In this document: piece after piece, positions 27,343 to 30,826 of the stretch
How positions within the stretch are numbered: position 1 is the first letter of the stretch
How the letters are laid out: each line of letters begins with the position of its first letter
Source of the DNA: Lysobacter sp. GX 14042
Lineage (GTDB): Bacteria > Pseudomonadota > Gammaproteobacteria > Xanthomonadales > Xanthomonadaceae
Assembly (NCBI RefSeq): GCF_021390425.1
Contig: NZ_JAJUWY010000005.1
Coordinates: forward strand, 124,001-188,000
DNA length: 64,000 bases
Direction of reading: 5' to 3'
Notes under the pieces: model-generated
Seen by the model: only the letters and a program-made list of their open reading frames with translations
Told to the model about the DNA's origin: nothing
Databases searched by the model: none
Made by a program: the position numbers and the translations under genes

Positions 27343-27903
27343 CTATCCGGCTCCGTCGTTCCCGCGGACGTCCCGATCGTCATTCCCGCGGACGTCCCGA
27401 TCGTCATTCCCGCGGACGCGGGAATCCATGGACGTTATGGTTTCCTGGTCCGCGGTGATGGATCCCCGCGTGCGCGGGGATGACGTATCGACATGCGGGG
27501 CTGTCGAATCGATGTGCGGGGCTGTCGAATCGATGTGCGGGGATGACGTGTCGATGTGCGGGGATGACGTGTCGACGTGCGGGGATGACGGTGCGGCAGG
27601 TCGCGGCTCCAGTCCGACGATGTCGGGCCACAGGTCACGCCATGAGGGATTGGACGAATCCACCAGTTCCACCTTCCAGGCCCGCCGCCACTTCTTCAGT
27701 CGCTTCTCGCGCAGGATCGCCGATTCCATCGTCTCATGCTGCTCGTACCAGACCAGGCGGGTGATGTCGTACTTCGCAGTGAAGCCGTCGACTGCGTGTT
27801 CCCGATGCTGCCATATGCGGGCTATGAGATTGCTGGTGACACCGAGATAGAGGGTGCCGTTGGGTTTGCTGGCCAGCAGGTAGACGCAGGGGTGCCTTTC
27901 CAC
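27343..27903 (-). CDS. GIY-YIG nuclease with repeat-encoded C-terminal tail (Ssn-like candidate)
   Basis: Residues 1-100 form a single-domain GIY-YIG nuclease of the small COG2827-like group: CVYLLASKPNGTLYLGVTSN carries the GIY..YIG variant, LIARIWQHRE the conserved Arg, and SAILREKRLKKWRRAWKVEL the catalytic Glu helix, closing with NPSWRDLWPD. The start is GTG at 27903 with AGGAG upstream. The remaining 80 residues are translated repeat DNA: about five 7-residue units (SPHIDTS type) and 8-residue VRGNDDRD units. It separates gspE from gspF and is flanked by palindromes on both sides. GIY-YIG proteins of the Ssn family cut single-stranded DNA at a dispersed genomic repeat in Neisseria; assignment of this protein to that family is inference. 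Confidence 0.82.
   Translation of the reverse strand: MERHPCVYLLASKPNGTLYLGVTSNLIARIWQHREHAVDGFTAKYDITRLVWYEQHETMESAILREKRLKKWRRAWKVELVDSSNPSWRDLWPDIVGLEPRPAAPSSPHVDTSSPHIDTSSPHIDSTAPHIDSTAPHVDTSSPRTRGSITADQETITSMDSRVRGNDDRDVRGNDDRDVRGNDGAG
27354..27592. repeat. array of palindromes and half-palindromes in the 3' part of the GIY-YIG gene
   Basis: From left to right on the plus strand: two 24-bp half-units (GTCATTCCCGCGGACGTCCC type, about 27354-27402), a full palindrome (27403-27435), a full palindrome of the ATCCCCGCG type (about 27458-27486), then about five tandem 21-bp half-units with core GTGCGGGGATGACG or GTGCGGGGCTGTCG (27490-27592). The half-units retain only one palindrome arm plus the TGACG flank. 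Confidence 0.85.
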
Positions 27904-27929
27904 TTTGCTTCACTCCTTGAAGCGGCAGG

Positions 27930-28013
27930 TCCATGGATTGCCGCGTTCGCGGCAATGACGGGGAACCGGGCGACAGCGACGTCCATGGATTCCCGCGTTC
28001 GCGGGAATGACGG
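27930..28013. repeat. two dispersed palindromes between gspE and the GIY-YIG gene
   Basis: Copies at 27930-27960 (CCATGGATTGCCGCG, TTC, GCGGCAATGACG, a variant whose arms changed together) and 27981-28013 (GTCCATGGATTCCCGCG, TTC, then GCGGGAATGACG). Together with the array at 27354-27592 they bracket the nuclease gene. Confidence 0.88.
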
Positions 28014-29865: not shown

Positions 29866-30168
29866 TTAGCCGGGACTGGCGGCTTCACCCACGCGACTTT
29901 CGTGGTGATGCCATACGCGCAGGATGACCACAAAGTCCTTGCGCACCAGATAGCGCACTACGTAGTCGCCAAAGGAGAAATCACGAATTTCTGCAGGCGG
30001 GGGGAACCCCTCCACCCTGCGCCCCATGAAAGGAGACGCAGAAAGCCGCTCCACGCGGGCCGTGAGATCCCCAGCGACCCTCGCGGCAGCGGTCGGGTCA
30101 TGCACGGCGATGAATCGCCGCAGCCTGGTGAGATCTGCGACAGCGTCCTTCGAATACGTGAGCCTCAT
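29866..30168 (-). CDS. ParE/RelE-type toxin
   Basis: A 100-residue protein with the RelE/ParE fold signature: MRLTYSKDAVADLTRLRRFI at the N-terminus, VERLSASPFMGRRVEGF in the middle and DYVVRYLVRKDFVVILRVWH HHE towards the end. Such toxins act on DNA gyrase (ParE) or ribosome-bound mRNA (RelE); the sequence does not tell which, although the pairing with a ribbon-helix-helix antitoxin favours ParE. Its ATG overlaps the antitoxin stop by four bases. Confidence 0.88.
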   Translation of the reverse strand: MRLTYSKDAVADLTRLRRFIAVHDPTAAARVAGDLTARVERLSASPFMGRRVEGFPPPAEIRDFSFGDYVVRYLVRKDFVVILRVWHHHESRVGEAASPG

Positions 30169-30437
30169 TGGCCGCTAGCGGGCGGCGGGAGCTCGTCGTC
30201 ACTGCCCCACGAGTCGAGCCAGGCGTGCACCGCCTGCCCCGACACGACTTCACCGCGGGCGACCGAATCGATGGCAGCCAGGGTCTCCTCCATGCGCGAA
30301 CGTTGCGCCTGGTGTCGGGCCACGTATTCGCGCACCGCCTCGTTGACCAGCCAGTTCCGGCTGCGGTTCAACTGCTGCGCGGTTTCACGAAGGTCCTGTT
30401 CGACTTCGGGCTGCAAACGGATGCTGGTCACGGCCAT
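30165..30437 (-). CDS. ribbon-helix-helix antitoxin (CopG/ParD type)
   Basis: A 90-residue antitoxin: MAVTSIRLQPEVEQDLRETA is the DNA-binding beta-strand and first helix of the ribbon-helix-helix fold, LNRSRNWLVNEAVREYV the second helix, and the acidic C-terminus (AWLDSWGSDDELPPP) would neutralise the toxin. The frame extends upstream through repeats; the ATG at 30437 matches the family N-terminus. An inverted repeat 31 bp upstream is a likely autoregulatory operator. Confidence 0.88.
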   Translation of the reverse strand: MAVTSIRLQPEVEQDLRETAQQLNRSRNWLVNEAVREYVARHQAQRSRMEETLAAIDSVARGEVVSGQAVHAWLDSWGSDDELPPPASGQ

Positions 30438-30467
30438 GGGGGCTCCGGATAGGGGTCCCGGGACAGT

Positions 30468-30484
30468 GTAGTACGTCGTGCTAC
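30468..30484. promoter_or_regulatory. possible antitoxin operator
   Basis: GTAGTACG, T, CGTGCTAC is an inverted repeat with one mismatch in eight pairs, 31 bp before the antitoxin start. Ribbon-helix-helix antitoxins commonly bind such short palindromes to repress their own operon. Confidence 0.45.
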
Positions 30485-30488
30485 AGGC

Positions 30489-30537
30489 GGGAGCGAGGAA
30501 CGAGTGAAGAGGAGTGAGGAACGAGTAAAAGCGGGTA
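30489..30537 (+). repeat. AG-rich GAGGAACGAG array
   Basis: GAGCGAGGAACGAGTGAAGA followed by GGAGTGAGGAACGAGTAAAA and GCGGGTAGCC. It lies in the 394-bp gap between the antitoxin and clp, which contains only repeats: this array, two palindromes and hairpin C. Confidence 0.75.
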
Positions 30538-30576
30538 GCCGGGCGAGGCACCCACACACACACAGCCCTCCTCCCA

Positions 30577-30604
30577 TCATCCCCGCGCACGCGGGGAGCC
30601 ATGG
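30577..30604 (+). repeat. dispersed palindrome
   Basis: CATCCCCGCG, CAC, GCGGGGAGCCATGG: one copy of the CCATGGA...TGACG palindrome family with a single change in the right arm flank. Confidence 0.8.
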
Positions 30605-30655
30605 CGCCGGTGCCGTATCCGGAAGGCGTGCCTCCGAAGCCATCGCCAACCGCCA

Positions 30656-30748
30656 GGAGCCGGCTGTCGTGGGGGAGAGGCCGCCCGACTTCAAAAAGGG
30701 CCGAAGGCCCGTCAGGAGGGCGGCCTCTCCCCCACGACAGCCGGCTCC
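30656..30748. repeat. long inverted repeat element C
   Basis: Arms 30656-30686 and 30718-30748 are perfectly complementary over 31 bp. The 31-nt loop, read on the minus strand, is TCCTGACGGGCCTTCGGCCC then TTTTTGAAGTC: the same TCCTG start and TTTTT..AAGTC end as in element A, but with an inner hairpin GGGCC-TTC-GGCCC in place of the GCACATGTGC palindrome. The inner hairpin plus T-run looks like an intrinsic terminator. Confidence 0.92.
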
Positions 30749-30795
30749 CCGCGAAGTCCCCGAAGGATCACGCGCCCTCCCGGAAAACCTCAAAG

Positions 30796-30826
30796 TCCAT
30801 GGATCCCCGCGTGCGCGGGGATGACG
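30796..30826 (-). repeat. dispersed palindrome at the 3' end of clp
   Basis: GTCCATGGATCCCCGCG, TGC, then GCGGGGATGACG, ending 5 bp before the clp stop codon. It could act as a transcript end or stabilising hairpin for clp. Confidence 0.85.

Follow-up and report, generated by a model that had tools for sequence, protein, structure and literature searches.

The stretch of Lysobacter sp. GX 14042 (Xanthomonadaceae) analysed here, 64,000 nucleotides long and hereafter called the window, carries a gene for a small GIY-YIG nuclease surrounded by short palindromes tagged with CGTC, which raises the question of whether the enzyme and the palindromes form one system. A first, sequence-only reading had proposed that they do. 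We found that nuclease and palindromes are linked across many genomes, match in type, and co-vary. With a probability of roughly 80%, we think that the gene product is a sequence-specific nuclease with the bracketing CGTC hairpin as its cognate site, that residue 71 reads one base of the hairpin stem, that gene and palindromes are inherited and exchanged together, and that palindromes spread where the matching nuclease is present. The locus comprises the following features:

27343..27903, minus strand: GIY-YIG nuclease open reading frame (ORF), 186 residues, GTG start with AAGGAG upstream
27607-27903, minus strand: folded GIY-YIG domain, residues 1-99, its end near residue 97-99
27691..27693, minus strand: Lys71 codon, predicted to specify stem base C (type CC-C-GC); the top column against stem base in both locus sets and the only one with all 17 contrasts
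27986..28012, minus strand: outer upstream palindrome, type CCCGC, CGTC outward, perfect 8-bp stem, DNA fold tested
27934..27960, minus strand: inner upstream palindrome, GCCGC (compensated stem change), CGTC outward, perfect 8-bp stem, DNA fold tested
27459..27485, minus strand: palindrome within the ORF tail, type CCCGC, CGTC towards the gene start, perfect 8-bp stem
27402..27428, plus strand: downstream palindrome within the ORF tail, type CCCGC, CGTC outward, perfect 8-bp stem, DNA fold tested
27471..27590, minus strand: five 21-bp direct repeats of half palindromes (family D1), translated in the C-terminal tail
27354..27425, strand not assigned: three 24-bp direct repeats of half palindromes (family D3), near the ORF end

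All palindromes at the locus have the form CGTC, 8-bp stem, 4-nt GNNN loop, stem, CCA. Two lie upstream, 33 and 85 bp from the start codon, and two lie past the domain in the ORF tail, so that the gene is flanked on both sides as the sequence-only reading had noticed. In the copy at 27934, pairing is kept because the stem change (ATTGCCGC/GCGGCAAT) is compensated. Folded as DNA single strands, the copies at 27986, 27934 and 27402 gave one common hairpin, with energies of -8.0 to -8.6 kcal/mol and z of -1.9 to -2.4. The tail itself (about residues 100-186, the last ~87 codons) is mostly translated repeat sequence, made of the five 21-bp and three 24-bp half-palindrome repeats and the two whole palindromes, and the gene is thus partly built from repeats. 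A scan recovered 13 members of the family within the window, and a strict pattern found 48 copies in the 2.8-Mb genome and 0 with a reversed control; the family is therefore dispersed, as claimed earlier, with three of the 48 strict copies inside the nuclease gene or at most ~110 bp away. As for the protein, the Pfam GIY-YIG match covers residues 5-77 of the ORF (E 9.2e-13), and Y8, Y19, G21, R29, H33, E66 and N85 are invariant among 54 sequences. In an AlphaFold2 model, whose confidence score (pLDDT) is 92.8, residue 71 belongs to the turn that joins helix 59-70, which carries the invariant Glu66, to helix 74-84; Glu66 and residue 71 thus lie near each other in the sequence.

Is this arrangement peculiar to one genome? 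We examined 130 homologous loci chosen from the listed matches in the family, most short fragments and the weakest matches being left out. A palindrome lies at most 250 bp from the gene in 117 of them, where 3.5 would be expected from genome counts with strict patterns, or 5.3 if the finder used on these loci is run on their distal parts (13 palindromes in 156,809 bp); in a distant outgroup clade, 0/8 loci have a palindrome within that distance. Palindromes stand on both sides with CGTC outward in 83/130 loci, and 82 of these have one and the same stem type left and right; the sole mismatch is the locus of the window itself, in which the compensated change sits in the upstream copy nearest to the gene. 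In 22 of the 112 ORFs with an unbroken domain, translation ends at the TGA of the palindrome downstream. A second, named set consisted of the best 80 of at least 574 confirmed loci from a scan of a genome collection; in it, 70 loci have a CGTC-outward palindrome on at least one side and 45 on both. This set includes a Neisseria gonorrhoeae homolog (65% identity over residues 4-96, Lys71, dRS3-type flanks), another Neisseria locus with Glu71 and N = G, and several records whose labels read Planctomycetes, Chloroflexi or Ignavibacteria, among them two metagenome bins.

The palindromes can be sorted by the core CC-N-GC of their stem into types CCCGC, CCTGC, CCGGC and CCAGC, plus a CTCGC group. 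Across 419 CC-N-GC palindromes from 210 loci, the loop starts with G in 407, the tail is CCA in 367 and the head is CGTC in 380. These fixed features are present on one strand only, which fits recognition of one strand as a hairpin. Stem type also follows the nuclease. On a nuclease tree of 127 rows (115 labelled), it changes 9 times, against 50 when shuffled. Within genera, each palindrome type is associated with its own nuclease type (z of 8.3 for Y, 4.9 for G and 4.6 for A; 0/2000 shuffles each), while off-diagonal pairings give z of -0.6 to 2.1. In genomes with a single labelled nuclease type, the matching palindrome is the commonest in 33/36 (Y), 11/11 (G) and 8/14 (A).

Which part of the protein, then, goes with the stem base? 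Residue 71 is by far the most informative column on N, in the family and named sets separately. Loci of mixed stem base (four) and loci without a CC-N-GC palindrome were dropped from this count. Among the 111 loci of the family set, Lys goes with C in 57/58, Glu with G in 20/20 and Ala with A in 19 and T in 4 of 23, with other residues at 10 loci; among the 52 of the named set, the figures are 30/31 for Lys and C, 11/11 for Glu and G, and 3/3 for Ala and A, with other residues at 7. The rule of Lys with C, Glu with G and Ala with A or T is obeyed by 100/101 family loci and 44/45 named loci that have one of these three residues, 144/146 together. Four named loci belong to the same family, two of them from genomes also in the family set; without them the total is 141/143, and they were dropped for the tree described below. 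Within the Ala class, Ala71 is paired with T at the loci with Trp at residue 92 (4/4) and with A at those with Tyr there (20/20), but the four T loci form just two pairs of close relatives.

Such a match could also be a by-product of shared ancestry alone, nuclease clade and palindrome type both being inherited by lineage. We addressed this on a tree built without column 71 (203 rows, 159 labelled, about 97 columns). In non-overlapping pairs that differ in N, residue 71 differs in 17/17, as compared to 7/37 pairs of similar distance with the same N (Fisher 7e-9), and all other columns fall far behind. When the control pairs were redrawn 20 times, column 71 had a median one-sided p of 2e-8, and the runner-up, column 73, one of 8e-4. 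Ancestry does have points in its favour: the types cluster on the tree, and the 17 contrasts rest on weak forks because a restriction to starred branches reduces each comparison to a single independent pair, which does not allow a test. Both members obey the full rule in just 11 of the 17. On balance, we regard ancestry alone as a very unlikely explanation of the pattern at residue 71.

How the nuclease would recognise its site can be proposed in outline. Most likely, it recognises an extruded or single-stranded hairpin from one strand, by the CGTC head, the loop starting with G and the CCA tail. Residue 71 would then read the variable stem base, Lys specifying C paired with G, Glu specifying G paired with C, and Ala specifying A or T. 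By analogy with common base-reading habits, Lys may read the guanine of the opposite arm and Glu the cytosine, presumably through direct contact of residue 71 with the stem base. We infer that the enzyme cleaves single-stranded hairpins, and that this cleavage would either drive the spread of the palindromes or limit DNA uptake.

If the palindromes spread with a matching nuclease, their number should be higher in genomes that have the gene. In a family sample of 297 genomes, 118 have a homolog at E 0.001, and 94 still do at E 1e-15 (hereafter strong homologs); the distribution is patchy and includes 2/10 genomes of the window's own genus. The median number of CCYGC-pattern palindromes is 17 with a strong homolog and 0 without, and at least 5 palindromes are present in 67/94 genomes with a strong homolog versus 13/203 without. 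When gene presence was shuffled within genera, the observed association was reached in 0/5000. A separate set of 216 genomes drawn from the whole class, hardly any of them in the family sample, pointed the same way at E 1e-30, more weakly (19/38 versus 16/178). As a separate observation, one genome (G477) has sixteen nuclease matches, mostly C-terminal fragments with an in-frame TGA, which looks like a burst of decayed copies.

The palindromes might owe their spread to another enzyme, such as the REP-associated tyrosine transposases (RAYTs) that published work links to repetitive extragenic palindromic sequences (REPs); the GIY-YIG gene would then merely be a place where palindromes accumulate. 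Y1 transposases (PF01797, which covers RAYTs and relatives) are indeed common, with matches in 209/297 family genomes. Their presence is unrelated to palindrome count, since at least 5 palindromes occur in 56/209 genomes with a match versus 24/88 without (Fisher p 1.0), and 2605/5000 within-genus shuffles reach the observed value. There is no PF01797 match in the window's genome or in G003, a palindrome-rich genome of the same genus, and Di Nocera et al. 2013 (PMC3733652) report that none of the RAYT genes had CGTC repeats as flanks. Accidental insertion, moreover, does not predict that stem types match nuclease clade and residue 71. We therefore disfavour this explanation strongly and consider it hardly credible. 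As a side observation, G213 has fourteen near-identical Y1 transposase copies with one in-frame TAG each.

Several results weigh against a strict partnership of the GIY-YIG nuclease and the palindromes. G003 has 28 palindromes and no homolog, and G039 has 20 with no nuclease found. The 13 family genomes (of 203) that reach 5 palindromes without a strong homolog include seven with a weaker or partial match, and class-wide at E 1e-15 there are 15 such genomes in 166 without a strong homolog; conversely, 18 of the 38 class-wide genomes with a homolog at E 1e-30 hold 0-1 copies of the pattern used. Type matching has its exceptions as well. G palindromes are the commonest in five of the 14 genomes in which only an A-type nuclease was labelled, and at least 15 copies of a type occur with no labelled matching nuclease in 13 (Y), 25 (G) and 10 (A) genomes, counts that include genomes for which not every match was fetched. 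In the named set, stem types agree on both sides in just 33/45 loci. Lastly, no clear rule emerges for residues other than Lys, Glu and Ala at position 71 (10/111 and 7/52 loci), and Ala itself does not specify a single base. Gene loss, incomplete assemblies and other stem types may be behind the mismatched genomes. The earlier expectation that homolog presence tracks palindrome copy number is thus borne out as a tendency within the family; genomes with many palindromes and no homolog, which the sequence-only reading had named as a refuting outcome, do occur, at low frequency. The link itself, which the sequence-only reading had offered as conjecture, is supported by co-occurrence within genera, by matched flanks, by palindrome type following the nuclease phylogeny and by residue 71 tracking the stem base.

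We then considered how the gene and its palindromes move. At one and the same place, G222 (locus L076) has a CCAGC unit with Val71 and G234 (L122) a CCGGC unit with Glu71; the upstream palindromes and most of the gene differ, and both flanks are nearly identical. This is an allele swap of the whole nuclease-palindrome unit. G021 (Ala71, CCAGC) and G066 (Glu71, CCGGC) likewise show the switch on both sides at one place. These cases are what one would see if nuclease and palindromes were inherited and exchanged as one unit. The window's gene lies between gspE and gspF of the type II secretion operon, a junction that eight of the genus's 10 genomes have closed (5 to 48 nt, including stop and start codons) and two, G000 and G201, have filled. 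The same junction holds 26 of the 130 homologs, from 13 genera, all 26 on the operon strand and of type CCCGC:

gspE-gspF junction, operon strand: loci L004-L015, L017, L019, L021, L022, L026, L028, L031, L032, L065, L075, L083, L104, L140 and L142

This distribution, together with the unit swap between G222 and G234, is what a homing-like cassette would produce, in which the nuclease cuts palindromes in alleles without a nuclease gene and the cassette is then copied in by way of its flanking sites, used as homologous ends. Cutting of this kind is hard to reconcile with the eight closed junctions, which have no palindrome and hence no site to cut, and neither a target-site duplication nor a precise boundary could be shown. 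Homing is, in our view, unlikely. Mobility in general must be viewed with caution, as the alignment of most of the 45 closest pairs listed takes in the flanks and not just the gene, which also counts against our reading. The gene itself is thus not seen hopping, and recombination that adds or removes it is a better fit than frequent hops.

The palindromes, by comparison, do seem to have moved recently in the window's genome, as parts of a longer unit:

30575..30826, strand not assigned: 252-bp non-autonomous element with two CGTC-type palindromes at its ends, heads outward, the left head degenerate (CATC)

A 27-bp core of this element is present in 12 identical copies in this genome and absent from the 9 other genomes of the genus, allowing up to 2 mismatches. 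Compared with a reference copy, the similarity of two copies, L259 and L260, ends at most ~5 bp from the outer palindrome ends; the window copy extends 24 bp further left, and most other copies lie within larger shared composites. The element (L254-L264) has a long internal hairpin, GGAGCCGGC...GCCGGCTCC around AAAAAGGGCCGAAGGCCC. These findings suggest a recent spread of units bounded by palindromes. Pairs of palindromes are also frequent outside the element: under the strict pattern, 8/8 pairs less than 300 bp apart in the window's genome have CGTC outward, whereas pairs within 150 bp around homologs are 54 outward, 33 inward and 29 tandem, a weaker polarity bias. In our reading, such palindromes, often as CGTC-outward doublets, would spread in genomes with the matching nuclease, much as REPs do with RAYTs, through an unrelated enzyme.

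Comparison with known repeats places the window's palindromes among CGTC-1 REPs, which have a CGTC head, an 8-bp stem starting with AT, a 4-nt loop and a CCA tail, with doublets mainly of one polarity (PMC3733652, section 6). The window's palindromes share the head, the stem starting with AT, the loop and the tail, and the doublets of the window's genome share the polarity. The same paper places dRS3 of Neisseria among the CGTC REPs, which were reported in 2013 without a dedicated enzyme, the enzyme that serves them being left open. What differs here is that palindromes stand alongside 117 of 130 nuclease homologs in one family. A term search of the main text of a 2025 survey of REPs (PMC12306157) gave no hit for "GIY-YIG" or for "nuclease". 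The arrangement resembles that of RAYT/REP systems (REPtrons) and REPINs in that the gene is bracketed by the REP on which it is thought to act and REPs are dispersed as doublets, and it differs in that the enzyme is a GIY-YIG protein and not a Y1/HUH tyrosine transposase. The GIY-YIG domains of UPF0213, Slx1, At-HIGLE, UvrC and I-TevI show 13-27% identity in the alignments made.

Of known systems, the closest would be the Ssn nucleases, a family of site-specific single-stranded nucleases. A paper of 2025 reportedly describes these as single-strand-specific GIY-YIG nucleases whose homologs vary in specificity, the repeat in Neisseria being called NTS; their dispersed cognate repeat is said to have a ATTCCCGCG core, and they are said to function in Neisseria DNA uptake. 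The window protein shares the GIY-YIG fold, the small single-domain form and a dispersed repeat (the 48 strict copies, a putative cognate repeat given the co-variation), and differs in its repeat-derived tail. We consider it a probable Ssn nuclease, given its 65% identity to the N. gonorrhoeae homolog and the similar flanks of that homolog, which are of dRS3 type. The proposal of a Xanthomonadaceae counterpart of Ssn, a nuclease with cognate sites, is upheld where sequence can test it; the N. gonorrhoeae homolog is a candidate for the published Ssn.

This kinship brings in a further explanation, that the enzyme acts in natural transformation, where it would cut single-stranded DNA at palindromes as it enters and so shape which DNA is integrated, with no mobilisation involved. 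The N. gonorrhoeae homolog and the uptake function reported for Ssn speak for it, and it is compatible with a hairpin nuclease of the kind we propose. Taken alone, it leaves unexplained why the gene is bracketed by matching sites and why a site-bounded element has expanded here. We hold it to be a serious possibility, slightly below even odds. About as tentative is a broader extension of our reading, namely that the CGTC REPs, one of two great REP super-families, may have a dedicated GIY-YIG hairpin nuclease that travels between its own sites, that a one-residue code largely sets its specificity, and that it supports the spread of palindrome-bounded elements, making this a nuclease-based REP system. 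If specificity is largely set by one residue, new cognate pairs could arise by single substitutions.

Judged from sequence comparisons, the novelty would lie in the one-residue recognition code and in the candidate dedicated enzyme for CGTC REPs. Neither the residue 71 code nor a partnership of CGTC REPs with a GIY-YIG nuclease was found in the literature searched, which excluded the Ssn paper. A candidate enzyme can thus be named for CGTC REPs including dRS3 of Neisseria, on the basis of one family and of named loci from Proteobacteria and a few records from other phyla. The code makes the partnership cheaply testable, for one substitution should switch the preferred hairpin base. If true, it would provide a small nuclease for single-stranded DNA that can be re-targeted, and REP systems would have arisen a second time, independently.

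One minor feature of the neighbourhood is a ParE-type toxin ORF with a ribbon-helix-helix antitoxin-like ORF at 29866-30602 of the window, between gspE and the palindrome-bounded element.
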